From Yinghuangia soli (GTDB lineage: Bacteria; Actinomycetota; Actinomycetes; Streptomycetales; Streptomycetaceae): DNA of 42,054 nucleotides. The stretch is taken from assembly GCF_021502675.1 (NCBI RefSeq), contig NZ_JAKFHA010000006.1, positions 184,466-226,519 on the forward strand, given 5' to 3'. Below are positions 8,232 through 37,528 of the stretch, piece after piece. How positions within the stretch are numbered: position 1 is the stretch's first letter; the number at the start of each line of letters is the position of its first letter. Both the position numbers and the translations under genes were made by a program. Below the pieces are notes generated by a model. The model searched no databases. It was not told the origin of the DNA and saw only the letters and a program-made list of their open reading frames with translations.

Positions 8232-8260
8232 TTGAGAGTCTGACGGGTCGTCAATAACCT
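8232..8260 (+). promoter_or_regulatory. Promoter with operator in its spacer, for the SRPBCC gene
   Basis: TTGAGA (8232-8237), a 17-bp spacer and TAACCT (8255-8260) form a plausible promoter 36 bp before the start. The palindrome TGACG-GGT-CGTCA at 8241-8253 fills the spacer. Read on the other strand it is followed by GAC, matching four other sites in the window. A repressor here would block both divergent genes. Confidence 0.55.
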
Positions 8261-8295
8261 GGGCCGTCCGTCCCCTCATACGCCCGGAGGATCCG

Positions 8296-8799
8296 GTGAA
8301 GTACTCGCTGCGCCCCGAACCGATCGAGTTCGTGCAGACCGCGCCGAAGCGCCGCGCCTGGTCGGCCGACCTGGCCGCGTCCCCGAAGCAGGTCTTCGCC
8401 GCGCTGACCGACGATCCGGACACCTGGAAGCACTGGTTCCCCAACTTCAAGGGCGGCGGCTGGCTCTCCGAGGCGCCCGAGGGCGGCCACGGGGTGGGCG
8501 CCCGGCGCGAGGTGCGGCTGGTCAAGCCGGTGGTGTTCCACGAGACGGTGATGGCGTACGAGGAGCCGACCCGCTGGGCGTACCGCATCGACGGGCTCAC
8601 CGTGCCGATGTGCCACGCGCTCATCGAGGAGTGGCTGATCGAGCCGCGCGGCACCGGGTCCCGGGTCACCTGGACGTTCGCCGCCGACCCGATGCCGATG
8701 ATCGCCTTCACGCTGCGGTTCATGCCGTGGGCGATGAGCTCGACGTTCCGGCGCGCGATGAAGAACCTCGACCGGCGGCTGGCCCCGATCTCCGCCTGA
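8296..8799 (+). CDS. SRPBCC family protein (polyketide cyclase/START-like)
   Basis: This 167-residue protein has the SRPBCC helix-grip pattern. An N-terminal strand (RRAWSADLAASPKQVFAALTD) leads to DPDTWKHWFP, a run of beta strands (GARREVRLVKPVVFHETVMAY, shown in part) and a long C-terminal amphipathic helix (SSTFRRAMKNLDRRL). Members bind hydrophobic ligands in a deep pocket; many are lipid or polyketide binding proteins without known catalysis. The GTG start is preceded by CGGAGG. A TGACG-type palindrome in the promoter suggests co-regulation with the divergent hydrolase and the distant acyl-CoA genes, consistent with binding of a hydrophobic catabolite. That role is inferred. Confidence 0.8.
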   Translation: MKYSLRPEPIEFVQTAPKRRAWSADLAASPKQVFAALTDDPDTWKHWFPNFKGGGWLSEAPEGGHGVGARREVRLVKPVVFHETVMAYEEPTRWAYRIDGLTVPMCHALIEEWLIEPRGTGSRVTWTFAADPMPMIAFTLRFMPWAMSSTFRRAMKNLDRRLAPISA

Positions 8800-8896
8800 C
8801 CGCGCACTCCCTGCGGCCGCGGGGCATCCAAAGGGCGAAATGATCATATTTGCCCGAAGATGAGACAAACTGTGGCCAACATAGGGAGTCATCGTC

Positions 8897-9412
8897 ATGG
8901 GAGCCGCGAACCTGGGGGGTCTCGGGAACCTGGGCAGCCTCGGCGGCCTGCTGGGCGGCCTGCTCGGCGGGTCCGGCGGCGGGCAGAACCCGCTGCTGAA
9001 GGTCGTCCTCGGGATGCTGCAGGGCGGCGGGTCCTCGGGCGGCACCGGGGGCGCCGGCGGGCTCGGCGGCCTGCTGGAGCAGCTGCAGGCGGGCGGCCTC
9101 GGCAGCCAGGCCAAGTCGTGGGTCGACAACGGCCGCAACCAGCCGGTCAGCGGGCAGGAGATCACCACGGCGCTGGGCGAGCAGGAGCTCGACCGGCTGG
9201 CCGGAGAGGCGGGCATGACGCGCGAGGAGACCGCGGCCGGCATCGCCGCCGCGCTGCCGCAGGTCGTCAACGCGGTCACACCGGACGGCGAGGTGCCCCC
9301 GGAGAACGATCTGGACCAGGCCCTCGGCCAGTTCCTCAGCGAGACGGGCGGTGCGCCAGCGGCCGGCGCGCCGAACCCGGACGGCGGTGGGAGCACCGGC
9401 GAGACCGGCTGA
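8897..9412 (+). CDS. YidB/DUF937 family protein
   Basis: The product has 171 residues. It begins with a glycine/leucine-rich segment (GGLGNLGSLGGLLGGLLGG) and continues with LLEQLQAGGLGSQAKSWVDNG, NQPVSGQEITTALGEQELDRLA and a helical end. This matches the YidB family (DUF937), small helical proteins of unknown biochemical role. A glycine-serine-rich loop and a short disordered tail flank the helical core. The ATG at 8897 has a moderate ribosome site (AGGGAG). A perfect hairpin follows the stop. No link with the neighbours is evident. Confidence 0.85.
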   Translation: MGAANLGGLGNLGSLGGLLGGLLGGSGGGQNPLLKVVLGMLQGGGSSGGTGGAGGLGGLLEQLQAGGLGSQAKSWVDNGRNQPVSGQEITTALGEQELDRLAGEAGMTREETAAGIAAALPQVVNAVTPDGEVPPENDLDQALGQFLSETGGAPAAGAPNPDGGGSTGETG

Positions 9413-9470
9413 GCCGCCGGACCCCGGGCCGGAGAAGACGGCCGGGACGGCTCGTACGCAGTGCATGCCC

Positions 9471-9510
9471 GCGGGGCCGCTGCCGACCGGAGAGTCGGCG
9501 GCGGCCCCGC
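9471..9510. terminator. Bidirectional terminator between YidB-like gene and P450
   Basis: Seventeen-base arms (9471-9487 and 9494-9510) pair with a single wobble around a 6-nt loop. It lies between the converging YidB-like and P450 genes and should serve both. Confidence 0.8.
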
Positions 9511-9519
9511 GCGCTGCGC

Positions 9520-10866
9520 TCAGGCGCCGGTGCCGGTGCCCGTCCGGGGCGGGCTCGGCGTGAAGGTGCAGTCCATGTGCTTGATGCCGTTGATGAAGCT
9601 GGAACGCAGCCGCTGGGGCTCGCCGGACATCCGGATGTCCGGGAGCCGGCCCAGCAGTTCGCGGAACATGATGGTGATCTCGCGTCGGGCCAGATGCGCA
9701 CCGAGGCAGAAGTGCGGACCCGGACCGCCGTATCCGACATGCGGGTTGGGGTCGCGCGTGATGTCGAAGCGCTCGGGGTCCGCGAAGACCGCGGCATCGC
9801 GGTTGGCGGACCAGTAGTACATCAGCAGCTTGTCGCCCGCGGAGATCTCGCGGCCGCCCAGCTGCGTGTCCCGGGTCGCGGTACGCCGCATCCACACCAC
9901 GGGCGACGCGCAGCGCACGATCTCCTCGACCGCGGTGGGCGCGTAGCGCTCGAAATCGCTGAGCCACAGGTCGCGTTGGTCGGGATTCTCGGTCAGCAGC
10001 CGGAGTCCGTGCGAGACCGCGTTGCGGGTGGTCTCGTTCCCGGCGACGACCAGCAGGATGAAGAACGACGCGATTTCCTCGGCGGTCAGGCGCTCGCCGT
10101 CGATATTGGCGTTCACCAGGGCGGAGATGACGTCGTCCGCCGGATTGCCGATCCGGTGCGCGGCCAATTCGGTGAGCAGTGCGGCCAGTTCGCCGCCTGC
10201 GGTGAGGAGCACGGTGATGTGGTCGGCGTCCTCCGGGACGTATTCCGGGTCCGCGACGCCGATGATGGTGTTGCTGCGGTCCAGGATGAAGCCGTAGTCC
10301 TTCTCCGGGACGCCCATCATGTCGCAGATGACCTTGAGCGGCAGGCGCGAGGCGACCTCGGTGACGAAATCGCAGGAGCCCAGCCCCGCCACCTCGTCCA
10401 CGATGCGCGCCGCGGCGAGCTCGACGTCCTGCTCGAACTTCTTGATCATGCGCGGCGTGAAGGTGCGCGAGACGATCCGCCGCAGCCGGTGGTGGCGCGG
10501 GTCGTCCATCTCGATCATCGAGCCGAAGAACTCGGCGAACTCGGTCGGGAAGTCCGGGATGTGGGTGGCGCCCTGGCCCGAGCAGAAGTCCTCGGGCCGG
10601 CGGCTGACCTCCAGCAGGTCGGCGTGCCGGGTCACCGCCCAGTAGCCCGCGCCGGCCGGCAGCGGGCTGGCCGGCTCGGGGTAGTAGGGCAGCGGCCACT
10701 CGGTGCGCAGCCGGGCGAAGCCGGTCTCACGCTCCGCGAACGGGCCCGCCCAGAACTCCATGTCGGACAGGTCGACCCAGTCCGGCGCCGCCTTGTGCGG
10801 CGACTCGTGGTGCGGTGCGTGCGGCGCGGCCGGCGATGCCGGCCCGACGCCCTCGGAGCCCGTCAT
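9520..10866 (-). CDS. Cytochrome P450, CYP124-like
   Basis: This 448-residue soluble P450 has all signature elements. The I-helix carries AGNETT (275-280), the K-helix E315-I-V-R318, and the heme loop GYGGPGPHFCLG with Cys387. Long stretches such as IASFFILLVVAGNETTRN, YAPTAVEEIVR and FINGIKHMD agree with my memory of mycobacterial CYP124, an omega-hydroxylase of methyl-branched lipids and cholesterol. The oxygen-activating position is G-N-E-T-T rather than the commoner G-x-D/E-T-T with a preceding acid, and CYP124 shares this. The ATG at 10866 begins a sensible reading; a longer in-frame extension lies in a repetitive region and is rejected. No ferredoxin gene is adjacent. Substrate assignment is inference from similarity. 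Confidence 0.9.
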   Translation of the reverse strand: MTGSEGVGPASPAAPHAPHHESPHKAAPDWVDLSDMEFWAGPFAERETGFARLRTEWPLPYYPEPASPLPAGAGYWAVTRHADLLEVSRRPEDFCSGQGATHIPDFPTEFAEFFGSMIEMDDPRHHRLRRIVSRTFTPRMIKKFEQDVELAAARIVDEVAGLGSCDFVTEVASRLPLKVICDMMGVPEKDYGFILDRSNTIIGVADPEYVPEDADHITVLLTAGGELAALLTELAAHRIGNPADDVISALVNANIDGERLTAEEIASFFILLVVAGNETTRNAVSHGLRLLTENPDQRDLWLSDFERYAPTAVEEIVRCASPVVWMRRTATRDTQLGGREISAGDKLLMYYWSANRDAAVFADPERFDITRDPNPHVGYGGPGPHFCLGAHLARREITIMFRELLGRLPDIRMSGEPQRLRSSFINGIKHMDCTFTPSPPRTGTGTGA

Positions 10867-12346: not shown

Positions 12347-12880
12347 GTGAGCGTTCCCTTGCAGCCGGACGACCCGAAATCGGCGGACACCGTGGCCGCG
12401 CAGCGCCAGGTGCAGAGCGCCGTCGAGCGCCTGCTGCGGCTCCAGCAGAGCCGCCGCGTGCACGGCGAGCTGATGAACGCCGCACGCGCCCAGGTGTCCC
12501 AGCCCGCCGTGGTGCTGCTGTCCCGGCTGCAGGCCGACGGCGGCCTGACCATCGGCGAACTGGCCCGCCGCACCCACATGGACATGTCCCTGGTGAGCCG
12601 CGAGCTGCGCAAGCTGGAGGCGGAAGCCCTGGTGACCCGCACCACGGACGCCAACGACGGGCGCGTGACGCGGGTCGGCCTCACCCCCAAGGGCCGCGGC
12701 ATAGTGCGGCGCCTCCGCAACGTCCGCGACCGGCACATCTTCGAAGTGCTGTCGTCATGGTCGCCCGAGGAGCTCGTGGCCCTCGGCGGCCTCATGAGCC
12801 GCTTCGTGGACGACCTGCAGTCGGTGCGCTACCAGGACGCCGAGACCGACCCCGGCAGCGGCGGCCCGAGCGCCGGCTGA
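12347..12880 (+). CDS. MarR family transcriptional regulator
   Basis: The product has 177 residues with a MarR winged helix-turn-helix. Helical dimerisation segments flank LTIGELARRTHMDMSLVSREL (given in part), the recognition region, and the wing TRTTDANDGRVTRVGLTPKG with the conserved DxRxxxV/L-type turn. MarR proteins are dimeric repressors released by small phenolic or hydrophobic ligands. The start is GTG at 12347 with only a weak ribosome site; an internal start is possible. It is divergent from the SDR, and a strong palindrome lies between them, so the SDR is its likely target and it may also repress itself. Confidence 0.88.
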   Translation: MSVPLQPDDPKSADTVAAQRQVQSAVERLLRLQQSRRVHGELMNAARAQVSQPAVVLLSRLQADGGLTIGELARRTHMDMSLVSRELRKLEAEALVTRTTDANDGRVTRVGLTPKGRGIVRRLRNVRDRHIFEVLSSWSPEELVALGGLMSRFVDDLQSVRYQDAETDPGSGGPSAG

Positions 12881-12949: not shown

Positions 12950-12956
12950 GTGCTCC

Positions 12957-13274
12957 TCAGCCCGCGGCGCGCAGCAGACCGCCCAGGGCCCGGACCGCCG
13001 CCTCGGCCTCCGCGCCGCGACCGCGCAGCGTCACCGGCGTACCGGCCCGGGCACCCAGGCCCATGACCTCCAGGACGCTCGACGCGCGGGCGACGCGCCC
13101 GGCGGCGACCAGTTCCACATCCGCCGCGTACCCGGCCGCGGCACGCGCCAGCGCGCCCGCCGGACGGGCGTGCAGGTCCGCGGCGAGGACCACGTCCTCG
13201 GCATAGCGCCCGGCCTCCGCGGCGCCGCCCGCCGGATCCGCCTGGCCGGCCGGGTCCTCAGAACTTCCGTACAT
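12957..13274 (-). CDS. HPr-type phosphocarrier of the Dha system
   Basis: This 105-residue protein is an HPr domain. The active-site histidine is His35 in ADLHARPAG, and the regulatory-serine region is SSVLEVMGLGA around Ser66. HPr passes a phosphoryl group from enzyme I to the DhaM EIIA domain, which then phosphorylates the ADP on DhaL. About 27 residues precede the HPr core; this Ala/Gly/Glu-rich tail may be a relic of a linker or indicate a later start. It overlaps the 3' end of dhaM by 17 bp and shares its orientation, so the two are co-translated. In Escherichia coli this domain is fused inside DhaM. Confidence 0.88.
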   Translation of the reverse strand: MYGSSEDPAGQADPAGGAAEAGRYAEDVVLAADLHARPAGALARAAAGYAADVELVAAGRVARASSVLEVMGLGARAGTPVTLRGRGAEAEAAVRALGGLLRAAG

Positions 13275-13650
13275 CGCGTGCCTCCTCGGCGGCCCGGGCC
13301 ACCGCCTCGAGATCGGCCCCGGACGCCGCGGTGACCGCCGCCGCGACCGCGCCTTCCACGAACGGGGCGTCCACCAGCCGGATCCCGGCCTGCGGCTGCT
13401 CGGCGAGCAGCGCCCGCACGGTCAGCACCGCGCTGCCCAGATCCGGCAGCACCACCACCCCGGCACCCTGCTCGGCGGCCGCGATCGCCTCGGCCACCAG
13501 GCGCTCCGAGGTGCCGAGCCCGCCGTCCGCCCGGCCGGCCGCGACCGCCACGGGCACGTCGTCCCCGCCGATCTGCGCGATCATCTCGCGCAGCCCGCCG
13601 GCCAACGCGCCGCTGTGCGAAACCAGGACGAGTCCCACGAGATTGCCCAC
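13258..13650 (-). CDS. dhaM: DhaM, EIIA-type phosphotransferase subunit of dihydroxyacetone kinase
   Basis: The product has 130 residues. It matches the mannose-type EIIA domain of DhaM: GLVLVSHSGALAGGL with candidate phospho-histidine His12, then GGDDVPVAVAAG, GTSERLVAEAI, GAGVVVLPDLGSAV and a C-terminal helix. It should take phosphate from HPr and hand it to DhaL-bound ADP. Only the EIIA part is present, with the HPr and EI domains encoded separately next to it. The start at 13650 is GTG and lacks a ribosome site; a TAGCAT -10-like element ends eight bases upstream, so the mRNA may be leaderless. It is divergent from dhaK across 79 bp. Confidence 0.9.
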   Translation of the reverse strand: MGNLVGLVLVSHSGALAGGLREMIAQIGGDDVPVAVAAGRADGGLGTSERLVAEAIAAAEQGAGVVVLPDLGSAVLTVRALLAEQPQAGIRLVDAPFVEGAVAAAVTAASGADLEAVARAAEEARDVRKF

Positions 13651-13729
13651 GATCGGGCATGCTACGAGAACAGCCGCGATGCGTCACTCGCGGCGCCACG
13701 CAGGCAGGCAGCCGGCCGAGGAGAAGGTG

Positions 13730-14722
13730 ATGAAGAAGTTCCTGGACGACGCGGACACCGCGGTGGCCGATGCGCTGGCCGGACTGGCCTTCGCGCGGCC
13801 CGATCTGAAGGTCGATCAGGAACTCCGCATCGTGACCCGCGCGGGCGCCGTCCGCCCCGGGAAGGTCGGGCTGGTGTCGGGCGGCGGGTCCGGCCACGAG
13901 CCGCTGCACAGCGGGTACGTCGGCACCGGGATGCTCGATGCGGCGTGCGCCGGCGAGATCTTCTCCTCCCCCACCCCGGACCGCATCCTGGCCGCCACCA
14001 AGGCCGTCTCGGCCGGTGCGGGCGTGGTGCACATCGTGAAGAACTACACGGGCGACAACCTCAACTTCGACATGGCCGCTGAACTCGCGCGCGACGAGGG
14101 CCTGGAGGTCGAGAAGGTCCTCGTCGACGACGACGTCGCGGTGCGGGACTCCACGTGGACGGCGGGCCGGCGCGGCACGGGTGCCACGGTGATCGTGGAG
14201 AAGGCGGCCGGCGCGCGGGCCGAGGAGGGCGGCGACCTCAAGGCGGTGGCCGACATCGGCCGCCGGGTGAACGCCGCGTCCCGCTCTTTCGCGGTCGCGC
14301 TCGGCGCCTGCACCACGCCGGCCGCGGGGCGGCCCGGCTTCGAACTGGCCGAGGACGAGATCGAGATCGGGGTGGGCATCCACGGCGAGCCGGGCCGGGC
14401 CCGCGGCCCGATGCGGCCCGCGCGCGCCCTGGTCGCGGACATGCTCGATGCCGTCCTGGAGGAGCTGCCCGCCTCGGACGACCCGGTCATCGCCCTGGTC
14501 AGCGGCCTGGGTGCGACGCCGCTCCTCGAGCTGTACGTGGTTTACCGGCACGTGGCCGAGGAACTGGACCGCAGGGGTGTCCGCATCGCCCGCAACCTGG
14601 TCGGCAACTACGTGACCAGCCTCGACATGGCCGGAGCGTCGATCACCCTGTGCCGCGCGGACGCCGAGCTGCTGCGGCTGTGGGACGCCCCGGTCGACAC
14701 CCCGGCCCTGCGCTGGGGCTGA
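13730..14722 (+). CDS. dhaK: DhaK, dihydroxyacetone-binding subunit of dihydroxyacetone kinase
   Basis: This 330-residue protein is a full-length DhaK. It contains GLVSGGGSGHEPLH with His56 and GVGIHGEPG with His218, which corresponds to the histidine that binds dihydroxyacetone covalently as a hemiaminal. KNYTGDNLNFDMA and DDDVAV are also conserved. Together with DhaL it makes dihydroxyacetone phosphate for glycolysis in the cytosol. The ATG at 13730 follows GAGGAGAAGG; a GTG directly before it is an alternative with the same protein. dhaL begins 29 bp downstream. The PEP-dependent rather than ATP-dependent form is supported by the EIIA, HPr and EI genes beside it. Confidence 0.95.
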   Translation: MKKFLDDADTAVADALAGLAFARPDLKVDQELRIVTRAGAVRPGKVGLVSGGGSGHEPLHSGYVGTGMLDAACAGEIFSSPTPDRILAATKAVSAGAGVVHIVKNYTGDNLNFDMAAELARDEGLEVEKVLVDDDVAVRDSTWTAGRRGTGATVIVEKAAGARAEEGGDLKAVADIGRRVNAASRSFAVALGACTTPAAGRPGFELAEDEIEIGVGIHGEPGRARGPMRPARALVADMLDAVLEELPASDDPVIALVSGLGATPLLELYVVYRHVAEELDRRGVRIARNLVGNYVTSLDMAGASITLCRADAELLRLWDAPVDTPALRWG

Positions 14723-14751
14723 CAAAGCCGACCGCCGGAGACAGGAGCACC

Positions 14752-15396
14752 GTGCGAGATCTGGACACCGCGGCAGCACTGTCGTGGATGCGCGCCGCGG
14801 CGGCGGCCATCGCCGCGCACGAGGCGGAACTGAGCGCGCTGGACGCGGCGATCGGGGACGGCGACCACGGTGCCAACCTCCGCCGCGGCTTCTCCGCGGT
14901 CGCGGTGACCGCCGAGCAGCTGGTCGCGGACGGCGTCCAGCCGGGCCCGTTCCTGGTCGAGGTCGGCGGCACCCTCATCTCCAGCGTGGGCGGCGCGGCC
15001 GGACCGCTGTACGGCACCGCGCTGCGGTCCGCGGGCAAGGCGCTCAGCGGCCCGGCCGCGGACACCGCGGCGGTCGGCGCGGCCTTGCGGGCCGGGCTCG
15101 ACGCGCTGTGCCGGCTGGGCGGCGCCCAGGTCGGCGACAAGACGATGGTGGACGCGTTCGCCCCCGCGGTCGGCGCCTTCCAGTCCGCCGCCGACCAGGA
15201 CCTCGCGACCGCCGCGCTGCGGGCGGCCGCCGCCGCGGAGGAGGGCATGCGGGCCACCACACCGCTGCGCGCCCGCAAGGGCCGGGCCAGCTATTTGGGC
15301 GAACGCAGCATCGGCCACCAGGACCCCGGCGCGACGTCGACTGCCCTGATGTTCCGCGCCTTGGCCGAGTCCCTGACCCCGAGCCCCGCGGAATGA
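14752..15396 (+). CDS. dhaL: DhaL, ADP-binding subunit of dihydroxyacetone kinase
   Basis: The product has 214 residues and is a standard DhaL eight-helix barrel. IGDGDHGANL (Asp36, Asp38, His39) coordinates the magnesium ions that hold ADP. VGGAAGPLYGTALR, LGGAQVGDKTMVDA and RKGRASYLGERSIGH are family-conserved. In the PTS-type system the ADP is a permanent cofactor rephosphorylated by DhaM. The start is GTG with AGGAGC upstream. The stop overlaps the start of the enzyme I gene by four bases (ATGA), indicating translational coupling. Confidence 0.95.
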   Translation: MRDLDTAAALSWMRAAAAAIAAHEAELSALDAAIGDGDHGANLRRGFSAVAVTAEQLVADGVQPGPFLVEVGGTLISSVGGAAGPLYGTALRSAGKALSGPAADTAAVGAALRAGLDALCRLGGAQVGDKTMVDAFAPAVGAFQSAADQDLATAALRAAAAAEEGMRATTPLRARKGRASYLGERSIGHQDPGATSTALMFRALAESLTPSPAE

Positions 15397-20692: not shown

Positions 20693-21793
20693 TCAGGCGG
20701 CCGGGTAGCGCTTCGCCCAGTGCGTCTCGGGGGCGTCCGGCGCGTGCAGCGCCGCGGACTGCGTCATCTCCATCGAGAAGTCGTCGGCGAGTTGCAGCAG
20801 CGTTCCCCGGCCTTCGAGTTCGGCCACCAGGTCGGCGGGCAGCGCGGTCTCGCCGTGCATCGCACCGAGCAGGTTCCCGCAGATCGACCCGGTCGAGTCG
20901 CTGTCCCCGGAGTGGTTGACCGCGAGCAGCAGTCCGCTGCGCACATCCGGGGCGACCAGCGCGCAGTACAGGCCGATGGCCAGCGCCTCTTCAGCGGTCC
21001 AGCCCTGGCCCAGTTCCTCCACGCGGCCGGAGTCCGGAAGCCCGGAACGCACCATGCGCAGCGCGGACTCCACGGCCGCCACGGTCTCTTCGTGGCCCTC
21101 GTGCGCCTTGGCCAGTTCCAGCGCCTCGCGTACCCCCGCCTCGACGGTGGCGCCCTGCATCAGCGCGTGCACGAGCACCGCGAAAACCCCCGCGGACAGG
21201 TAGCCGGTGGGGTGCCCGTGGGTCAGCACCGCGCATTCGACCGCGAGTTGGAAGACCAGGTCGGGGCTCCAGCCGACCAGCAGGCCGAACGGCGCGGAGC
21301 GCATCACCGCGCCGCAGCCCTTCGAGTCCGGGTTCTTGGGCGTGTCCAGCGTGCCCATGACCTCGTCGTCGAGGCCGCGCAGGCAGGCATGCCCGGGCGC
21401 CCGCGAGCTGTACAGCCACTCCTCGCGCACGAGCCAGCCCTCGTCGCGGCGTTCGTCCGGGCCCCAGTCGCTCTGCGTGGCCTTCCAGCGCAGGTACGCG
21501 CGGTGCACGTCGGTCGGCGGGTGCCAGGAGCCCTCGTCGCGGCGCACGTGCGCGCGTATCAGGCCTTCCACGGTGAACAGCGTCATCTGGGTGTCGTCGG
21601 TGATCGCGCCGCGCCGGTGGTACGCCGTGACGTACCCCTCCACGCCGCCCGCACCGTGCTGCACCCGGATCTCGTCGAGGGACAGGAACTCGATCCCCGC
21701 GCCCAGCGCGTCGCCGATCGCGCCACCGAGCAGGCAGCCGCGGACCCGGCTGCGGAAGTCCTGCTGCCGCTCCCTGGACCACAGTGCGGCCAT
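20693..21793 (-). CDS. ADP-ribosylglycohydrolase family protein
   Basis: This 366-residue protein has the all-helical ADP-ribosylglycohydrolase fold signatures. GCLLGGAIGDALGAG is near the N-terminus, AITDDTQMTLF (residues 63-73) supplies magnesium ligands, and NHSGDSDSTGSICGNLLGA near the C-terminus supplies the second acidic cluster. The enzymes remove ADP-ribose from proteins or small molecules, reversing ADP-ribosylation. The ATG at 21793 follows GGGAGGG. It lies downstream of fbiC on the same strand, but a 205-bp gap with a TGACG-type palindrome suggests its own regulated promoter. The target of deribosylation is unknown. Confidence 0.9.
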   Translation of the reverse strand: MAALWSRERQQDFRSRVRGCLLGGAIGDALGAGIEFLSLDEIRVQHGAGGVEGYVTAYHRRGAITDDTQMTLFTVEGLIRAHVRRDEGSWHPPTDVHRAYLRWKATQSDWGPDERRDEGWLVREEWLYSSRAPGHACLRGLDDEVMGTLDTPKNPDSKGCGAVMRSAPFGLLVGWSPDLVFQLAVECAVLTHGHPTGYLSAGVFAVLVHALMQGATVEAGVREALELAKAHEGHEETVAAVESALRMVRSGLPDSGRVEELGQGWTAEEALAIGLYCALVAPDVRSGLLLAVNHSGDSDSTGSICGNLLGAMHGETALPADLVAELEGRGTLLQLADDFSMEMTQSAALHAPDAPETHWAKRYPAA

Positions 21794-21925: not shown

Positions 21926-21938
21926 TGACGATCCGTCA
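21926..21938. promoter_or_regulatory. TGACG-type operator upstream of the ADP-ribosylglycohydrolase
   Basis: TGACG-ATC-CGTCA followed by GAT lies 133 bp upstream of the start codon. It matches four other promoter palindromes in the window, and shares the extended TTATTGACGA end with the site at 8241. The distance suggests a long leader or a promoter well upstream of the gene. Confidence 0.55.
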
Positions 21939-21998: not shown

Positions 21999-24581
21999 TC
22001 AGCCCAGGATCGGCAGCATGATCTTCTCGACCTCGTCGTCGTGCCGCCGCGCGACCTCCTGGCGCTCCGCGCTCACCTCGCCGTAGGTGGTGGTCCGCTG
22101 CCGGGCCCGGCGGCCCAACGACGCGGCCATCGACTCCAGTTCGGCGATCGACTTGCGCGAGCCGTTGTCCGCGCCCGCCATCCGGGAGATGGTCTCCTCC
22201 ATGAGCGTGCCGCCCATGTCGTTGGCGCCGCCCTGCAGCATGAGGTTGGTGCCCTCGACGCCGAGCTTGACCCAGCTGGTCTGGATGTTGGAGATCTTGC
22301 CGTGCAGCAGGATGCGCGCCATCGCGTGCACTGCGCGGTTGTCGCGCAGCGTCGGGCCCGGGCGGGCGATACCGGCCAGGTACACAGGCGCGTTGGTGTG
22401 CACGAACGGCAGCGTCACGAACTCCGTGAACCCGCCCGTCTGGTCCTGGATGCGGCCGAGCAGGCGCAGGTGCGCGAGCCAGTGCGCGGGGGTGTCCACG
22501 TGGCCGTACATCATCGTGGACGAGGAGCGGATGCCCAGCTCGTGCGCGGTGCTCACCACCTCGACCCAGGTGGCCGCGGGCAGCTTGCCCTTGGTGAGGA
22601 TCCAGCGCACGTCGTCGTCGAGGATCTCGGCCGCGGTGCCCGGGATGGTGTCCAGGCCCGCTTCCTTGGCGGCCTGCAGCCAGTCGCGGATGGACATGCC
22701 GGTGCGGGTCGCGCCGTTGACGACCTCCATCGGCGAGAAGGCGTGCACGTGCATCTCCGGCACGCGCTTCTTCACCTCGCGCGCGATGTCGAAGTACGCG
22801 GTGCCAGGCAGGTCGGGGTGGATGCCGCCCTGCATGCAGACCTCGGTGGCGCCGACCGCCCAGGCCTGCTCGGCGCGTTCGCCGACCTGCTCCAGGGAGA
22901 GCGTGTACGCGTCGGCGTCGGTGCGGCGCTGCGCGAACGCGCAGAACCGGCAGCCGGTGTAGCAGACGTTGGTGAAGTTGATGTTGCGGTTGACGATGTA
23001 GGTGATCTCGTCGCCGGACGCTTCCTTGCGCAAGTCGTCCGCGATGCGCGCGAGTTCGTCGAGCGCCGGGCCGTCCGCGTGGAACAGCGCGAGGGCCTGG
23101 TCGTCGGTGAGCAGGGTCGGGTCGGCGGCGGCCTGCCCGAGCGCCGCCTTCACGTCGGCGTCCAGGCGCACCGGGGCGGCCGAGCCGTCCCGGCCGTAGG
23201 TGGCCTGCCCGCGCAGCTCCTCCCAGTCGCCGTAGACCTCGTCGAAGTCGTCGCGGCGGTCCGAGGTGCGGCCGGTGGTGTCGATGGTGACGTGCAGGTC
23301 GGTACGCCCCGACGCGGCCGCGAAAAGGTCCTCCGGCTCCTGCCAGGGCAGCCCCTCGGGGTTGCGGCCCTCGACCGCCATGCCGTCCTCGTCGGACAGC
23401 GCGCGGGTGTGCGGGATGACGCGCGGGTCGATCCACGGCTCGCCGCGCTTGATGAACTCCGGGTAGATGGTCAGGCGTTCACGCAGCGCGAAGCCGGACT
23501 CGGCGGTGCGCTCCGCGAGTTCATCGATGTGCGGCCAGGGGCGCTCGGGGTTGACGTGGTCCGGGGTGAGCGGCGAGACGCCGCCCCAGTCGTCGATGCC
23601 CGCGCGGATCATCAGCGCGAACTCCTCGCCCACCAGGTTCGGCGGGGCCTGCACGCGCATCTTGGGGCCGAGCACGATGCGGGTGACCGCGATGGCCGCG
23701 GCGAGCTCTTCGAGGTCCGCGTCGGCGGCGGAGCGCATCGCGGTGTCCGGCTTGGCGCGGAAGTTCTGCACGATGACTTCCTGGATGCCGCCGTACTGCC
23801 GGGCGATGCGGCGCAGCGCGAAGACCGATTCGGCGCGCTCCTCCATGGTCTCGCCGATGCCGATCAGGATGCCGGTGGTGAACGGCACGTTGGACCGGCC
23901 GGCGTCCTCCAGGACGCGCAGGCGGACCGCGGGCTCCTTGTCCGGGGAGCCGTGGTGCGGGCCGCCGGGCTCGGACCACAGGCGGGTCGCGGTGGTCTCC
24001 AGCATCATGCCCATGGACGGGCTGACCGGCTTGAGGCGCTGCAGGTCGGTCCAGGAGAGCACGCCGGGGTTGAGGTGCGGCAGCAGGCCGGTCTCCTCGA
24101 GCACCCGGATGGCCATGGCGCGGACGTACGAGAGGGTGTCGTCGTACCCGTGCGCGTCGAGCCACTCGCGGGCCTCGGGCCAGCGGTCCTCCGGGCGGTC
24201 GCCGAGCGTGAAGAGCGCTTCCTTGCAGCCCATCGCGGCGCCGTCGCGGGCGATCTTGAGGACCTCGTCGGGGCTGAGGAACATCGAGTGCCCCTCGCGC
24301 TTCAGCTTGCCCGGGACGGTCACGAACGTGCAGTAGTGGCACTTGTCCCGGCAGAGCCTGGTGAGCGGGATGAACACCTTGCGGGAGTAAGTGATCACAC
24401 CCGGACGGCCGACCGCGTCCAGACCGGCGTCGCGCACCCGGGCCGCGGAGGCGCAGAGGTCCTCCAGGTCGGCACCCTTGGCGTGCAGCAGGACCTCGGC
24501 TTCGGAGACGTCCAGCATGACTCCGTCACGGGCCCGGCGCAGCGCGCGGCGCATCGCGCTCTCGGTCGGAGTCTGGGTCAT
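21999..24581 (-). CDS. fbiC: FbiC, 7,8-didemethyl-8-hydroxy-5-deazariboflavin (FO) synthase
   Basis: This 860-residue protein fuses two radical-SAM halves. The CofG half has CRDKCHYC with Cys77, Cys81 and Cys84; the CofH half has CYTGCRFC with Cys540, Cys544 and Cys547. Together they make the FO chromophore of coenzyme F420 from tyrosine and 5-amino-6-ribitylamino-uracil. The fused form is typical of actinobacteria; archaea use two proteins. Glycine-rich [13 protein letters not shown] and [13 protein letters not shown] are conserved. The ATG at 24581 follows GAGGGG; an upstream in-frame start would run across the promoter. An F420-type LLM oxidoreductase lies 2.2 kb upstream, a plausible user of the cofactor. 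A perfect inverted repeat upstream may control it. Confidence 0.97.
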
Positions 24582-24804: not shown

Positions 24805-26553
24805 TCAGCCGCCGAAGGTCAGCGAAGCCGGCTCGACGGTGTACGTGTCGCGGCCGGACCGCAGGACCTTGCCCGCCGTCGCGCCGACCGTCTGGCCGTC
24901 GCGGATGGTCTCCACGCCGTTGACGCGGACCGAGACGATGCCCTCGGACTCGGCGGTCAGGCGCGGGCTGTCGCCCGGCAGGTCGTGCATCAGGCGCGCC
25001 GGGCCGGAGTTGACCGTCTCCGGGTCGAACAGCACCAGGTCGGCGTGGTTGCCCTCGGCGATGGTGCCGCGGTCCTTGAGGCCGAACAGCTTGGCCGGGT
25101 CCTGGGTGAGCATCTGCACCGCGCGCTCGAGCGAGACGAGCTTGCGGCCGCGCAGCGTGTCGCCCAGGAAGCGGGTGGTGTAGGTGGCACCGCACATGCG
25201 GTCCAGGTGCGCACCGGCGTCCGAACCGCCCAGGATGACGTGCTCGTTCGTCCAGGTCTCCTGGCGGAGGTCCCACGAGGCCTGGTCGTTGTCGGTCGGC
25301 ATCGGCCACAGCACCGTGCGCAGGTCGTCGTTCGCGCAGATCTCGACCAGCGTCTCGAAGTCGTCCTGGCCGCGCTCGGCGGCGATGTCCGCGACCTGGC
25401 GGCCGGACAGGCCCTCGTTGGCCTCGGAGTAGACGTCGCCGATGACGTAGCGGCCGAAGTCCGACAGGCGGCGGAAGACGCCGGCCTCCGGGCTGGTGGC
25501 CGCGGCGACGAGGCGCTCCTGCAGGCCCTTGTCGCGCAGCGCGGCGATGCGCTCCGGGACCGGCAGCGACAGGGTCGGGCCCCACTCGCCGGGCATGAGG
25601 TTCAGCGCGCAGTAGGTCAGCAGCGACATGTTCATCGGCACCAGCACCGGGAGGGTGAGGATGACGATCTTGCCGCCCGCCTCGGCGGCCTTCTCGGAGG
25701 CGTAGATCTGGCGCGGCACGCGGGTCGGCGCGGCGGAGTCGACGGTGAGGACGTTCCAGTTCATCGGGCGTCCGGCGGTGACCGTCATCTGGGTGAGGAG
25801 GTCGATCTCCTCGTCGGTGAACTCGTCGTTGCAGCCCGCGACGATGACCTCGAGCTGGGTGCCCTCGTGGCGGCCGACCTCGGCGCACAGCGCGAGGACC
25901 TCTTCCGGGGTCGCGTGGCGCGACGGGACGGGCGCGCCGTCGCCGTCGGTGTGGCTGGCGCGGCCGGTGGAGAAGCCGAGCGCACCGGCCTCCATGGCCT
26001 TCTTCAGCTCGGCGACCATGCCCGCGATCTGCTCGGGCGAGGCCTCCTTGCCGACCGAGTCCGGGCCCATGACGTAGCGGCGGATCGCGCAGTGGCCGGC
26101 CATGAAGGCGGCGTTGACGCCGATGCTGCCGTCGAGCTTGTCCAGGTACTCGGAGAAGGTCTCCCAGGACCAGTCGATGCCGTTCTCGAGGGCCGGGAGG
26201 GCCATGCCCTCGACCTTGGCCATCATGCGGCGGGTGTAGTCGGCGTCCTCGGCCTTGAGCGGGGCGAGGGTGAAGCCGCAGTTGCCGCCCACGATGGTGG
26301 TGACGCCGTGGTTGGCGGAGGGGGTCGCGTAGGCGTCCCAGTGCAGCTGCGCGTCGTAGTGCGTGTGCGGGTCGACGAAACCGGGCGCGAGCACCAGGCC
26401 GGTCGCGTCCTCGGTGGATGCGGCTTCCTCGGTGATGCTGCCGGCCGGGCCCACGGCGACGATGCGGCCGTCCCGGATGCCCACGTCACCCCGGAATGAG
26501 GGCGATCCCGTTCCGTCGACGACGGTGGCTCCGGTGATGAGGTGGTCGAGCAT
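24805..26553 (-). CDS. D-aminoacylase/N-acyl-D-amino-acid deacylase family amidohydrolase
   Basis: The product has 582 residues and is a metal-dependent amidohydrolase. The metal motif is DPHTHYD (His63, His65), followed by [12 protein letters not shown], an [11 protein letters not shown] segment, and [13 protein letters not shown] with the catalytic Asp. The small beta domain is built from the ends ([11 protein letters not shown] at the start, [16 protein letters not shown] at the end). Family members deacylate N-acyl-D-amino acids or hydrolyse cyclic amides; this longer version is common in actinobacteria with an unknown substrate. The ATG at 26553 is followed by a clear beta-strand start. 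A TGACG-type operator lies 89 bp upstream, linking it to the acyl-CoA genes. Confidence 0.88.
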
Positions 26554-26641: not shown

Positions 26642-26654
26642 TGATGGTACGTCA
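26642..26654. promoter_or_regulatory. TGACG-type operator upstream of the amidohydrolase
   Basis: TGATG-GTA-CGTCA followed by GAT lies 89 bp upstream of the amidohydrolase start. One half-site base differs from the consensus. The centre GTA and the GAT flank are the same as in the site at 37516. Confidence 0.5.
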
Positions 26655-26781: not shown

Positions 26782-27732
26782 CTACTTGTTCAGCAGCGGC
26801 GCGACCTGCGTCGAGAACGCCTCGATCTGGTCGAGCAGCTCCTGCAGCGTGCGGTTGCGGAAGCGGATCTGGATCTGGTTGGCGCCCTGCTCGCCGTACC
26901 AGCGCAGCGACTCGGCGATCTTCTCCGGGCTGCCGGACAGCGTGTGGTCGCCGACCTCCCAGTCCGGGGTGCCGACGTAGAGCATCTCGGTGATCGCGCC
27001 GATGTCCATGCGCTCGTCGCCGCGGCCGCACTCCTCGCGCAGGCGGCGCAGCTCGGCGACCTGGTCCGGGTAGGTCGCCCGGGGGCTGCCCTGCGGGAGC
27101 CAGCCGTCCGCGAGCCGCGCGACGCGCTTGAGGGCGGGGCCGGCCGAGCCGCCGATCCAGATCGGCGGGCGCGGGCCCTGCACCGGGCGGGGGCGCTGGC
27201 CCATGTCCTCGACCTTGAAGCGCTTGCCCTCGTACGTCACGAACTCCTCGCGCAGCGCGAGGTCGAGCAGCTCCAGCGACTCGTTGAGCGCCGGACCGCG
27301 GTCCTTGAAGTCCAGGCCGAGCATCTCGAACTCGGCCTCGACGTGGCCGGCCCCGGCGCCGATGATCGCGCGGCCCTTGGAGATCACGTCCAGCGTCGCG
27401 AACGCCTTCGCGGTCATCAGCGGGTGGCGGTAAGCCAGGATCGCCACGTGGCTGACCAGGCGCACGTTGGTGGTGATGCCGGCCAGCCAGCCGAGCGTGG
27501 TCATGGTGTCCCACCACTCGGTGCCCATCATCGGGGCGTGGCTGCGCGGGATGGCGGTGTGGTCGCAGACCGCGATGTAGGCGAAGCCGCCGCGGTCGCA
27601 GGCCTGGGCGATGGCGGCCAGGTCGTCGGGGCCGGCGTTCTCCTCCCACGCCTCGGCGTAGATCTTGCTCTGCGACTGGATCGGCAGCTGCATGCCGTAG
27701 TGCAGGACGCCGGGGGGCAGGATCGCGGCCAT
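26782..27732 (-). CDS. LLM-class F420-dependent oxidoreductase
   Basis: This 316-residue protein is a luciferase-like TIM-barrel enzyme. It shows YGMQLPIQSQSK near the start, AIAQACDRGGFAYIAVCDH, MMGTEWWDTMTTLGWLAGIT, RLVSHVAILAYRHPLMTAKAFATLD in part, GAGAGHVEAEFEMLG and a PIWIGGSAGPALKRVARLADGW segment. In actinobacteria such proteins mostly use F420H2, with substrates ranging from alcohols to lipid intermediates. F420 rather than FMN use is inferred from the family and the nearby fbiC. The ATG at 27732 follows AAGGGAG. It is divergent from a crotonase with one TGACG-type operator between them, so both may act in the same catabolic route. Confidence 0.88.
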   Translation of the reverse strand: MAAILPPGVLHYGMQLPIQSQSKIYAEAWEENAGPDDLAAIAQACDRGGFAYIAVCDHTAIPRSHAPMMGTEWWDTMTTLGWLAGITTNVRLVSHVAILAYRHPLMTAKAFATLDVISKGRAIIGAGAGHVEAEFEMLGLDFKDRGPALNESLELLDLALREEFVTYEGKRFKVEDMGQRPRPVQGPRPPIWIGGSAGPALKRVARLADGWLPQGSPRATYPDQVAELRRLREECGRGDERMDIGAITEMLYVGTPDWEVGDHTLSGSPEKIAESLRWYGEQGANQIQIRFRNRTLQELLDQIEAFSTQVAPLLNK

Positions 27733-27788: not shown

Positions 27789-27801
27789 TAACGCACCGTC
27801 A
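27789..27801. promoter_or_regulatory. TGACG-type operator between LLM oxidoreductase and crotonase
   Basis: TAACG-CAC-CGTCA followed by GAC lies in the 107-bp divergent gap, 39 bp before the crotonase start and 57 bp before the LLM start. It can serve both promoters. One base of the left half differs from the consensus. Confidence 0.5.
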
Positions 27802-27839: not shown

Positions 27840-28673
27840 GTGATCAACACCACCGATCCGAGCATCGAGGCAGGCCAGGAGCGCATGAGCCTGCACGTCG
27901 CGGACGGCATAGGCACTGTCACGCTCTGCCGCCCCGAGAAGCTGAACGGGTGGAGCTGGGAGTCCAGCCGGCAGCTCGGCATCATGGCCGACCGCATCCG
28001 CTTCGACCCGGAAATCCGCGTCGTCCTCCTGCGCGCCGAGGGCCGCGCCTTCTGCGCCGGCATCGACGTCACCGCCCCCGGCGGCAACATCACCGGCCGC
28101 TCCGGCGCCGAGCGCACCCGCAACTACTACGAGGGCCTCCGCTGGGTCCACGAGCGCTTCCGCGCCTTCGCCCGGCTCCCCCAGCCCATCGTCGCCTCCG
28201 TCCAGGGCTACGCCCTCGGCTTCGGTTTCGAACTCGCCCTGCTCGCCGACATCCGCATCGCCGCCGACGACGCCGTCTTCGCCCTCCCCGAAGCCCAGCT
28301 CGGCGTCGCCGTCGACGCCGGCGGCGACATGCGCATCGCCCGCGAGGCCGGCGCCGGCTGGGCCAAATACCTCGCCCTCACCGGCCGCCGCATCGACGCC
28401 CCCACCGCCGAGCGCCTCAACCTCGTCCAACTCGTCGTCCCCCGCGACGACCTCGACAAGACCGCACTCTCGGTCGCCACCGACATAGCCGCCAACGCCC
28501 CCCTCGCCGTCCAGGGCATCAAGCGCAGCATCGACTCCTACGCCGACGCCGCCCTCGACACCGCCCTCGCCCAGACCGCCATGACCGCCGCAGTAACCCT
28601 CGCCTCCGAAGACATCACCGAGGGCTACACCGCCAAGGCCCAAAAGCGCCAGGCCACCTTCGAGGGCAAGTAG
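27840..28673 (+). CDS. Enoyl-CoA hydratase/isomerase (crotonase) family protein
   Basis: This 277-residue crotonase has an oxyanion-hole segment AEGRAFCAGIDV and GYALGFGFELALLAD. Glu131 and Glu151 (ALPEAQLGV) stand at the positions of the two catalytic glutamates of classical hydratases, so hydration of a 2-enoyl-CoA is likely. The GTG start at 27840 follows GAGGGG. Codon third positions are almost all C, more so than its neighbours. The gene is divergent from the LLM oxidoreductase and shares a TGACG-type operator with it. Its acyl chain specificity cannot be read from the sequence. A second crotonase at 37624 lacks both glutamates. Confidence 0.9.
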   Translation: MINTTDPSIEAGQERMSLHVADGIGTVTLCRPEKLNGWSWESSRQLGIMADRIRFDPEIRVVLLRAEGRAFCAGIDVTAPGGNITGRSGAERTRNYYEGLRWVHERFRAFARLPQPIVASVQGYALGFGFELALLADIRIAADDAVFALPEAQLGVAVDAGGDMRIAREAGAGWAKYLALTGRRIDAPTAERLNLVQLVVPRDDLDKTALSVATDIAANAPLAVQGIKRSIDSYADAALDTALAQTAMTAAVTLASEDITEGYTAKAQKRQATFEGK

Positions 28674-34928: not shown

Positions 34929-34953
34929 GCCCCGGCCTCATGCTGTGAAGGCG

Positions 34954-35616: not shown

Positions 35617-35790
35617 GTCCGTCACTCCCGGCACAACCGTCACCCGTGCCGCGCCTCGCCGGGAGGCGGGACGTCCGGGAACAGGCCAGGCCCGGGCGGG
35701 GGTTGCGGATTCGCGGCTTTCCGGGCGTCCGCTCTTTCCAGCGTGCGCCTCCGGCCGGTACGGGACAACCCGGGCCGCCGCCGCGACGAG

Positions 35791-35828
35791 CGCTGCTGCC
35801 GTCCCTCGAAGAGGGGACGGCAGCAGCG
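35791..35828 (-). terminator. Strong terminator of the acyl-CoA ligase gene
   Basis: Fifteen-base perfect arms (35791-35805 and 35814-35828) around TCGAAGAG start six bases after the ligase stop codon. Confidence 0.85.
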
Positions 35829-35833
35829 GCAAG

Positions 35834-37462
35834 TCACTTGGCCTGGGCGGCGAACTCCTCGGCGGCCTGGGCGCGGAGTTCGAACTTCATGACCTTGCCG
35901 GTCGGGTTGCGCGGGAACTCGGTGACGATCTCGACGTACCGTGGCACCTTGTAGTTCGCCATCTCCTTGCGGCAGAAGTCGATGATCTCGTCGGGAGTCA
36001 CCGTCTCGCCCGCGCGCAGCAGCAGGTACGCCTTGCCGACCTCGCCCATGCGGGCGTCCGGGACGCCGATGACCGCGGCCTCGGACACCGCGGGGTGCCC
36101 GGCGAGGACCGACTCGATCTCGGCCGGGTAGGCGTTGAAGCCGCCCACGATGTACATGTCCTTGATGCGGTCGGTGATGCGCAGGTTGCCCTGCTCGTCG
36201 AGGATGCCGACGTCGCCGGTGTGCAGCCAGCCGTCCGCGTCGACCGCCTTGGCGGTCTCCTCCGGGTCCTCGAAGTAGCCCTTCATGATGTTGTAGCCGC
36301 GCACCCAGACCTCGCCCGCCTCGCCCGGTGCGGTGGGCTTGCCGGCCTCGTCCACGGTGATCAGCTCGACGCCGTCGATGGCGCGGCCCGAGGTGGCCGC
36401 GATGATCTCGGCGGGGTCGCCCTGGCGGCACATGCTGACCGTGCCGCAGGACTCGGTCAGGCCGTACGCGGTGAGGACGGTGTCGAAGCCGAGGTCGGTG
36501 CTCATCCGGGTGACGAGCGAAAGCGGCACGGAGGCCGCGCCGGTGACCGCGAGGCGCAGCGACGACAGGTCGTACTTGCCGCGCGTGCCGGAGTCGAGCA
36601 GGGACGTGTAGATGGTCGGCGCGCCCGGCAGGACGGTGACCTTCTCGGCCTGGATCTGCGCGAGTGTGGCGTCCACGTCGAAGACGGCCTGCGGGATCAT
36701 CGTGGCGCCCTGGATCAGGCTCGCCAGGATGCCGGCCTTGTAGCCGAAGGTGTGGAAGAACGGGTTGACGATCAGGTAGCGGTCGCCCGCGGTGAGGCCG
36801 ACGGTGCTCGACCAGGCCTCGAACACGCGCAGCGACTGGCCGTGCGTGGTCATGACGCCCTTGGGGCGGCCGGTCGTCCCCGAGGTGAAGATGATGTCGC
36901 CGTAGTCGTCGCCGTTCACCGACGCGGCGCGCTCGGCGGCCGCCTCGGCGGAGACGGACTCGCCGGCCGCCAGGAAGTCGGCCCAGGTCGTGCACGTGTC
37001 GGGTGCGCTGTCGGCGAGCACGACCGCGGTCTTCAGGTGCGGCAGCGCGGCGAACGGCTGCCCGGGGACGCCCTCGCCGGCCGAGGAGCGCAGCATCGCG
37101 ACGTACGAGGCGCCCAGGAAGGTGCCGGAGACGAAGAGCAGCTTGGCGCGGGTCTTCTCCAGGACGTACTGCGCCTCGGCGCCCTTGTAGCGGGTGTTCA
37201 TCGGGACGATGACGCCGCCCGCGGCCAGTGCGCCGAGCGCGGCGGTGATCCAGTCGCGCGAGTTCGGGGCCCAGACCGCGACCCGGTCGCCCTTCTCGAC
37301 GCCGGCCGCGATGGCCGCGGCGGCCGCGGCGCGCACCCGGTCGCGCAGCTCGGCGAAGGTGACGCGCACGACGCCGTCCACGACGGCCTCGCGGTCACCG
37401 AAGCGCTCGGCCGCGCTGTCGACGAGAGCGGGAATGCTGCCCCACTCGAGATCACCCTGCAT
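35834..37462 (-). CDS. Acyl-CoA ligase, FadD3-like
   Basis: The product has 542 residues and is a class I adenylate-forming enzyme. It has FTSGTTGRPKG (phosphate loop), YGLTESCG, the hinge region WLHTGDVG and ITDRIKDMYIVGGFN, and a C-terminal catalytic lysine in NPTGKVMK. NPFFHTFGYKAGILASL and TVLPGAPTIYTSLLD agree with my memory of mycobacterial FadD3, which activates the steroid-ring remnant HIP. That assignment is tentative because no other steroid-ring genes lie here. The ATG at 37462 begins the gene. It is divergent from a crotonase across a gap with the best TGACG-type palindrome, so both are likely repressed together until their acyl-CoA inducer appears. Confidence 0.88.
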   Translation of the reverse strand: MQGDLEWGSIPALVDSAAERFGDREAVVDGVVRVTFAELRDRVRAAAAAAIAAGVEKGDRVAVWAPNSRDWITAALGALAAGGVIVPMNTRYKGAEAQYVLEKTRAKLLFVSGTFLGASYVAMLRSSAGEGVPGQPFAALPHLKTAVVLADSAPDTCTTWADFLAAGESVSAEAAAERAASVNGDDYGDIIFTSGTTGRPKGVMTTHGQSLRVFEAWSSTVGLTAGDRYLIVNPFFHTFGYKAGILASLIQGATMIPQAVFDVDATLAQIQAEKVTVLPGAPTIYTSLLDSGTRGKYDLSSLRLAVTGAASVPLSLVTRMSTDLGFDTVLTAYGLTESCGTVSMCRQGDPAEIIAATSGRAIDGVELITVDEAGKPTAPGEAGEVWVRGYNIMKGYFEDPEETAKAVDADGWLHTGDVGILDEQGNLRITDRIKDMYIVGGFNAYPAEIESVLAGHPAVSEAAVIGVPDARMGEVGKAYLLLRAGETVTPDEIIDFCRKEMANYKVPRYVEIVTEFPRNPTGKVMKFELRAQAAEEFAAQAK

Positions 37463-37515
37463 GATCGCTCCTGAGAGGTCCGACGGTGGCCGCCAGTGCC
37501 GTTGCTAGTCTGACC

Positions 37516-37528
37516 TGACGGTACGTCA
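37516..37528. promoter_or_regulatory. TGACG-type operator between acyl-CoA ligase and crotonase
   Basis: TGACG-GTA-CGTCA is a perfect palindrome that extends outward to CTGA and TCAG with short interruptions. It lies 54 bp upstream of the ligase and 96 bp upstream of the crotonase. On the minus strand CTGACG, 16 bp and TAGCAA could be the ligase promoter, placing the site on its -35. It is the most symmetric of the five related sites. Confidence 0.6.

Follow-up and report, generated by a model that had tools for sequence, protein, structure and literature searches.

The palindrome TGACG-N3-CGTCA of Yinghuangia soli as the probable operator of a global regulator in the Streptomycetaceae, with a TetR_C_38 protein as candidate

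A palindromic word, TGACG-N3-CGTCA, recurs in gaps between genes of a 42,054-nucleotide stretch of the actinomycete Yinghuangia soli (G000:C56:184466-226519, where G000 is the 9.7 Mb draft genome and C56 the contig; in the following "the window"), and judged from the sequence it is a real, conserved and genome-wide operator. Including its symmetric extension (ANC-TGACG-NWN-CGTCA-GNT) it is probably the operator of one global factor of the Streptomycetaceae that acts on acyl-CoA and steroid-like catabolism and on many other promoters, and the likeliest such factor is a repressor of EthR fold with a TetR_C_38 domain. The word is over-represented, specific in its spacer and located in gaps, it is conserved upstream of a crotonase, a FadD3-family ligase and an amidohydrolase, and it clusters round the gene of the TetR protein.

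In the whole genome, for which a scan had been proposed in an earlier note on this stretch, the exact pattern occurs 130 times, as compared to 4 occurrences of the reversed pattern and 58 of the same half-sites at spacers N4 to N8 taken together. As these other spacers average 11.6 each, about 118 of the 130 sites exceed chance. All 130 were fetched together with 4 kb of flanking sequence per side, or less near contig ends, those inside the window being read there, and genes were called by a custom script in the resulting 956,027 bp, which are sequence chosen round the sites and contain 173,243 bp (18%) of noncoding DNA. Although the noncoding share is that small, 101 sites lie outside called genes (40 in divergent, 53 in tandem and 8 in convergent gaps) and 29 inside, for 5 of which the called start codon overlaps the site; an equal frequency inside genes and in promoters, which the earlier note had named as an outcome that would speak against a regulon, is thus not seen. 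A second rule for assigning neighbours (105 sites) places 41 sites in divergent gaps, with 28.2 expected by length, and 8 in convergent gaps, with 16.4 expected. The distance to the start codon is 100-150 bp for 29 of 92 sites (13.6 expected), other distances being near expectation.

The word tolerates little change, as expected if a protein reads it. Symmetric one-base variants of the half-site have 0-3 noncoding copies each, near the background of other spacers, as compared to 101 for TGACG, and none of them is enriched; variants in a single half are enriched (33 noncoding copies vs 9.3 at other spacers), with the fifth base as the most tolerant one (16 of the 33). The symmetric extension was derived from 106 non-internal sites, and the trinucleotide GAY, which flanks the window sites, is part of it. 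No report of a TGACG-N3-CGTCA motif was found in the open-access literature, where few of the searches were made by motif letters, and a search of PMC4482099 for TGACG, CGTCA and TGAC gave no match.

For the window itself, the earlier note had listed five palindromes in promoter gaps, each followed by GAY. The gaps, three of them divergent, and the flank were confirmed; only three of the five sites are exact (8241, 21926 and 37516), two carry a single mismatch (26642, TGATG..., and 27789, TAACG...), and a further exact copy at 41317 had been missed. The four exact copies compare to 0.06 expected from shuffles, and at up to one mismatch six are seen with 2.8 expected, a number that 6 of 100 shuffles reach. 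Window statistics alone therefore back the exact sites only, and it is by the orthologues, not by window counts, that chance is excluded for 26642 and 27789. The note had taken the shared flank as what makes chance unlikely; the flank has turned out to belong to the extension.

This conservation, which the note had suggested looking for, is best supported at the crotonase gene 27840-28673, the product of which shares 92% identity with its Yinghuangia seranimata counterpart and then 72-80% with those of Embleya and Streptomyces. With at most one mismatch the palindrome is present within 100 bp in 24 of 32 orthologous loci of these three genera, 14 times exactly (34 loci were returned, L318 and L319 were dropped), while controls with spacer N2, with spacer N4 and with a coding stretch gave 0 of 32 each. 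Species differ in the three central bases and in how far exactly the site is from the gene, as expected of an operator. Upstream of FadD3 the site is found in all five homologues for which upstream DNA was available (56-76% identity; four exact, one with one mismatch), including a genome of a second family, and upstream of the amidohydrolase in 4 of 4, each with the same single departure as in the window. For the gene of the F420-dependent luciferase-like monooxygenase (LLM), three of four homologues have it at one mismatch and the fourth at two. Least conserved is the site of the ADP-ribosylglycohydrolase gene (1 of 4 homologues), the membership of which had appeared unexpected in the note; it has an exact site in the window and is doubtful outside the genus. 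These sets omit homologues below 45% identity or half length as well as FadD3 L286-L288 (cut by the locus end), FbiC L376 and LLM L325 (both partial), and the 8241 site stands outside them, PcaD and SRPBCC orthologues being absent from the loci searched.

The comparison was extended to 61 genomes, 37 of them Streptomycetaceae (f1), 14 of a second family (f3; 10 of genus g19 and 4 of genera g20 and g21) and 10 others. The motif is enriched throughout the Streptomycetaceae, with 11-315 exact sites per genome; f3 has 51-91 in g20 and g21 and 10-25 in g19, and the other genomes have 0-6. Within one genus the number can differ several-fold (33, 46 and 131 sites in G007, G021 and G031 of g6; 68 to 164 in G003, G019, G029 and G036 of g2), which suggests fast growth or loss of the regulon.

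The earlier note had predicted a TetR-family repressor as the reader, had seen no TetR gene in the window and had placed the regulator elsewhere. A TetR-type repressor is still the likeliest reader, and indeed none was found in the window by a TetR profile run over all called genes and by Pfam on 30 of the 38 called window genes, which did find a MarR gene at 12347-12880. The TetR profile applied near sites led to the likely candidate, which contig C56 carries at a distance of 22 kb from the window end (G000:C56:248557-249201, L136:5025-5672). The gene lies downstream of a short-chain dehydrogenase/reductase (SDR) gene, and the gap between the latter and an enoyl-CoA hydratase (ECH) gene carries the site. 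The ECH gene product matches the NCBIfam model PRK07938, and we take it to be EchA20-like. The note had also proposed to look for the site beside a tetR gene, and apart from this gap it was found in the promoters of two other TetR genes, P0001 and P0002. At E 1e-20 the candidate is present in 51 of the 61 genomes (37/37 in f1 and 14/14 in f3, in single copy, or two in G022) and was not found in the remaining 10. The 51 genomes have no fewer than 1.16 sites per Mb and the 10 have no more than 1.11, a separation that is only just complete and is confounded by lineage. Of the 52 matches, 30 were examined for a site at their own promoter: wherever the order ECH // SDR-tetR is kept, the gap has the palindrome with at most one mismatch (11 of 11 orthologues), and in the six orthologues from the window's genus and genus g4 it reads ATCTGACTGATCGTCAGAT in every case.

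Neighbourhoods of about 20 kb round the candidate were taken from 20 genomes, about one per genus, out of the 52 matches, with each genome's own density as the expectation. The count of exact sites in them is 19, all but one outside genes, as compared to 4.98 expected (P = 1.3e-6), and omitting three genomes whose nearby sites were known beforehand leaves 13 vs 4.68 (P = 0.001). The enrichment is clearest in genomes with at most 60 sites (11 vs 0.75, and without the three foreknown genomes 5 vs 0.45, P = 1e-4), where G009 and G038, each with 2 vs 0.04, are examples. Gaps that recur, named by eye, are FadD3 // thiolase-like (G003, G006, G038) and acyl-CoA dehydrogenase // thiolase-like (G003, G006, G008, G010, G014, G023). 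In the window's genome, the stretch C56:192.7-247.6 kb holds six exact sites with 0.74 expected, and the window is part of this cluster.

In an alignment of 34 of the 52 matches (32 from f1, 2 from f3), the DNA-binding part (positions 4-62) has 51 of 59 columns at least 90% identical, as compared to 59 of 153 elsewhere. The C-terminal ligand domain is PF19352, TetR_C_38 (211 bits, cut-off 23.9), and the N-terminal TetR_N domain scores 23.0 bits, just under the cut-off of 24. An AlphaFold2 model (pLDDT 92.7) is all-helical, and its 25 best PDB matches are all EthR, with 17-19% identity and a TM-score of 0.74-0.80 by query length. EthR itself belongs to the TetR repressors, and its pocket accommodates lipophilic ligands. 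No NCBIfam model matches the candidate at 1e-10, and the presence of a KstR2 model in that library was not checked. Homologues with 38-47% identity are also encoded on large Streptomyces plasmids, of which 34 records match and six were read (L378-L383: NZ_CP023976.1, NZ_CP107773.1, CP109208.1, NZ_CP134205.1, NZ_CP066832.1, NZ_CP119146.1). Four of these six genes are near an NAD-dependent DNA ligase gene, all six keep TSPATFYQYF in the recognition region, and the plasmid proteins might act on the host regulon.

Several observations weigh against the TetR_C_38 protein as the reader of one global operator. We infer its binding to the palindrome from association only, and repression as well as an acyl-CoA ligand are predicted. 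Where the gene order is different (19 of the 30 orthologues), the 1.5 kb upstream of the TetR gene are free of exact sites, although a one-mismatch site is present at -78 in one case, and the six plasmid loci of about 8.5 kb each have no exact site, with one-mismatch sites at -76 in one and at -1073 in another. Ten of the 20 neighbourhoods lack an exact site, including those of the site-richest G004, G015 and G027, one of the 19 neighbourhood sites is inside a gene, and genomes with more than 60 sites show a weak enrichment (8 vs 4.23, P = 0.07). Control neighbourhoods round the cholesterol regulator KstR, from which locus L282 of another family was omitted, have 9 sites with 1.85 expected, 5 of them being coding sequence in kstR; the 4 outside kstR compare to the same 1.85 (P = 0.12), so that some enrichment may be a general property of lipid loci. 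The dense stretch on C56 was chosen post hoc, and one on contig C2 is equally dense. The genomes of g19 have the TetR_C_38 gene and only 177 sites in ten genomes, where the reversed control gives 57. In the g20 and g21 genomes G040 and G044, 40 sites were examined (of 51 and 52), 16 inside and 24 outside genes; none of the 24 outside targets matched a target in Y. soli, and the motif in these two genera may be partly background. In G009 and G013, 23 of 26 sites were scored outside genes, one of which, in kstR, is actually coding, and only a thiolase is clearly common to their targets and those of Y. soli. No -10/-35 phase relative to the site was found, and GAY, present on at least one side of 28 of the 130 sites, is weaker as a separate mark than the earlier note had thought. 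Also the functional lean of the targets is modest, and two acyl-CoA dehydrogenases and two thiolases are found among the control genes as well.

The alternative with the most weight among the rivals, though an unlikely one, is that the operator is real and its reader is another family-wide regulator, of TetR or other class, that is not autoregulated. In its favour, the TetR_C_38 gene stands without a nearby site in many genomes, as in half its neighbourhoods, and the search route was limited to regulators encoded next to a site or next to the candidate. It is opposed by the fact that no other regulator gene is common to more than 8 of the 20 neighbourhoods: the candidate is in all 20 by construction, and the next regulator-like gene, sigma-like by eye, is in 8. 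The other readers considered do not fit either, as the two site-bearing TetR proteins are not family-wide, the KstR site is coding, and for a MarR protein of f3 the loci fetched from Y. soli contain no close match.

It is very improbable that BldD-(cyclic di-GMP) is the reader and the sites are its BldD boxes. TGACG-N3-CGTCA formally satisfies the BldD consensus TNAC(N)5GTNA (PMC4151990, PMC4282423), the scale is similarly global, with about 167 transcription units under BldD control in S. coelicolor (PMC4151990), and the box TCACG-CTG-CGTGA, with which BldD was crystallised, has its centre flanked by G and C as well (PMC4151990). The tolerance of the fifth base fits as well, and TGAC-N5-GTCA without the exact sites still has 17 noncoding copies vs 9 at N4 and 5 at N6. 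However, the G at position 2 is strict, as in the 956 kb there is no noncoding copy of the symmetric N3 forms TCACG, TTACG and TAACG, and copies of TNAC-N5-GTNA other than TGAC...GTCA show no excess, with 17 of 34 noncoding vs 22 of 27 at N6. In addition, the conserved targets are catabolic rather than developmental (FadD3, crotonase, thiolase-like, acyl-CoA dehydrogenase), and few developmental genes are among the targets.

Slightly less probable still is that the sites belong to P0002, a KstR-like TetR protein (KstR model 93 bits, cut-off 280) encoded at L066:3362-3961 divergently from a CoA-transferase-like gene. The gap in between holds the only site of the Y. soli genome with GAY on both sides, and the orthologues (L171-L175, from five genomes of two genera) keep an exact site in 5 of 5, with an identical palindrome. 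However, at E 1e-25 P0002 occurs in 5 of the 61 genomes only, and neither G002, of the same genus and with 155 sites, nor G004 with 315 sites has it. It is more plausible as one of the targets or as an additional reader than as the general regulator. Least probable of all is that the motif is an RNA hairpin, a terminator or a structural DNA word. TGACG and CGTCA could pair, and 8 sites are in convergent gaps, but compensating stems are absent, given the rarity of symmetric variants, and divergent gaps are over-used and convergent ones under-used.

Further regulators were examined as possible readers and rejected. For the TetR protein P0001 (L048), 19 of 61 genomes have a match at 1e-30 and 6 a close one (at least 76%), and the presence of P0001 does not follow the site number; among its 19 loci, of which L166 at a contig end was not placeable, only that of the window's genome has an exact site, and G002 has a one-mismatch site. 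KstR was found in 44 of 61 genomes, and the site in G009 that looked autoregulatory is kstR coding sequence for LTERQE, shared by relatives. Across L242-L285 the LTERQE codons in the kstR N-terminus often spell an exact or near-exact palindrome, a coding coincidence that is misleading for motif searches. In g20 and g21, orthologous MarR genes (L188:2196-2663 and L211:3355-3804, 80% identical) have the palindrome upstream in both genomes, and this MarR is perhaps a different reader in the second family; as general regulator it was rejected, the best match among the fetched loci of the window's genome being about 30%. In Y. soli the site is also in the own gaps of a GntR gene (P0003), a MarR gene (P0004) and two IclR genes.

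The earlier note had described a regulon of acyl-CoA and deazaflavin-linked genes; a regulon it is, of about 100 promoters, and the set is broad and leans modestly to acyl-CoA, SDR and F420 genes. Pfam finds 173 families among 128 putative targets, with 10 SDR, 4 AMP-binding, 4 ABC, 3 LLM and 3 sigma-70, and pairs that include CoA-transferase III and crotonase. Among 128 non-target genes, drawn at random from 582 in the same loci, 163 families include 3 SDR (Fisher P = 0.08 for the difference), 2 acyl-CoA dehydrogenases and 2 thiolases, and AMP-binding, LLM, CoA-transferase and crotonase are absent from the 25 commonest of these 163. Single targets confirmed by Pfam are an acyl-CoA dehydrogenase and a thiolase that share one gap (L135), electron-transfer flavoprotein (ETF, L046), a cysteine-rich 4Fe-4S protein (L084), citrate synthase (L121), methylmalonyl-CoA mutase (L068), a ChsH2-like protein (L112) and AMP-binding ligases (L067, L137). 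Names that have no Pfam or NCBIfam basis (chaplin-, WhiB-, thiolase-, DUF35-like and so on) were assigned by eye, and the only developmental genes recognised in this way among the 128 are two chaplin-like and a single WhiB-like one. The full form RTCTGACG-N3-CGTCAGAY has 8 sites in 15 other genomes, 5 of which adjoin, by eye, LLM, acyl-CoA dehydrogenase, AMP-ligase, SDR or ChsH2-like genes.

Similar regulators are known from other actinobacteria. KstR2 has the operator AnCAAGnnCTTGnT and a smaller regulon. In actinobacteria with mycolic acids it is likewise a TetR protein beside and over FadD3, enoyl-CoA hydratase, SDR, thiolase and acyl-CoA dehydrogenase genes; the present candidate differs by matching TetR_C_38 and no NCBIfam model at the above threshold. 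The KstR2 effector is HIP-CoA, and its regulon includes fadD3, echA20, fadA6 and fadE30 (PMC5380842). KstR also has a lipid regulon, but these genomes carry a separate KstR gene with its own box, seen in the promoter gap of 8 of 10 loci looked at as T..AAC..GTT..A, which is the KstR box pattern. EthR has the same fold as the candidate model (TM 0.80 by query length, 19% identity), with a sequence match in the DNA-binding end only, and the operator and the neighbours of EthR differ from those of the candidate. Two other mycobacterial TetR operators that are tied to acyl-CoA or keto-acid metabolism, those of MftR (T-N2-GGCA-N5-TGCC-N2-A, PMC8728441) and BkaR (GTTA(N)T(N4)A(N)TAAC, PMC3920632), differ in sequence from TGACG-N3-CGTCA. 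The regulon would be new in identity and scale, not in kind.

If the TetR_C_38 protein is the reader, its dimer would sit on a 13-19 bp operator at or near promoters, in most cases 30-150 bp ahead of the start codon, and so prevent transcription. An acyl-CoA or steroid-acid intermediate, lipophilic and produced by ligases of the FadD3 type, would bind in the pocket and thereby release the repressor. KstR2 acts likewise with HIP-CoA on the same kind of genes, and is taken here as an analogue of the candidate.

The coordinates of the sites and of their neighbouring genes are given in the table. The region upstream of fbiC has no site at up to one mismatch, neither in the window nor in four homologues. 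Elsewhere in the window, at 12957-17258, an HPr-like gene, DhaK (Dak1), DhaL (Dak2) and a PEP-utilising enzyme I-like gene are clustered, adjoined by the MarR gene mentioned above, and are probably a dihydroxyacetone kinase set of the phosphotransferase system type.

Table. Palindromic sites and adjacent genes in the window (window coordinates).
Feature	Position	Strand	Remarks
Exact operator (minus-strand reading TGACGACCCGTCAGAC)	8241..8253	-	Divergent gap, PcaD-like hydrolase // SRPBCC gene
Exact operator	21926..21938	+	Tandem gap, fbiC end to ADP-ribosylglycohydrolase start; weakly conserved
One-mismatch operator TGATGGTACGTCA	26642..26654	+	Upstream of amidohydrolase; same imperfect site in homologues
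One-mismatch operator TAACGCACCGTCA	27789..27801	+	Divergent gap, LLM // crotonase; kept in orthologous loci
Exact operator	37516..37528	+	Divergent gap, FadD3 // crotonase; kept upstream of FadD3 in all testable homologues
Exact palindrome	41317..41329	+	Inside FtsX-like gene 40005-41906; probably a chance occurrence
3-oxoadipate enol-lactonase PcaD, putative target	7378..8148	-	TIGR02427, 264.9 bits, cut-off 255.85
SRPBCC / Polyketide_cyc2 protein, putative target	8296..8799	+	Pfam
ADP-ribosylglycohydrolase, putative target	20693..21793	-	Pfam
FbiC / CofGH, FO synthase of F420 biosynthesis; neighbour of 21926 site	21999..24581	-	
Amidohydrolase (Amidohydro_3), putative target	24805..26553	-	Pfam
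F420-dependent LLM oxidoreductase, putative target	26782..27732	-	TIGR03619, 209.4 bits, cut-off 166.9
Crotonase / enoyl-CoA hydratase, best-supported target	27840..28673	+	Pfam, orthologous loci
FadD3-family acyl-CoA ligase, target	35834..37462	-	NF005801, 771.9 bits, cut-off 657
Second crotonase, putative target	37624..38400	+	Site upstream in 1/4 homologues, the one sharing gene order

Beyond the identity of the reader, a more far-reaching proposal, which we regard as possible rather than probable, is that in the EthR-fold TetR_C_38 protein the Streptomycetaceae have a master regulator, so far undescribed, for the catabolism of acyl-CoAs and steroid-like compounds. Its operators would have grown from a local FadD3/thiolase locus, still seen in a relative (genus g19) that is presumably Catenulispora-like, to 100-300 promoters, those of citrate synthase, methylmalonyl-CoA mutase, ETF and F420 enzymes included, and to an extent that differs greatly from genus to genus and also inside a genus. 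If this is true, precursor supply in the main antibiotic-producing family would be under a global control that comprises acyl-CoA, F420 and genes for entry into the tricarboxylic acid cycle, the number of operators per genome (11 to 315) would make growth and loss of a regulon measurable, and the question of who controls beta-oxidation in Streptomyces would come down to one testable gene.

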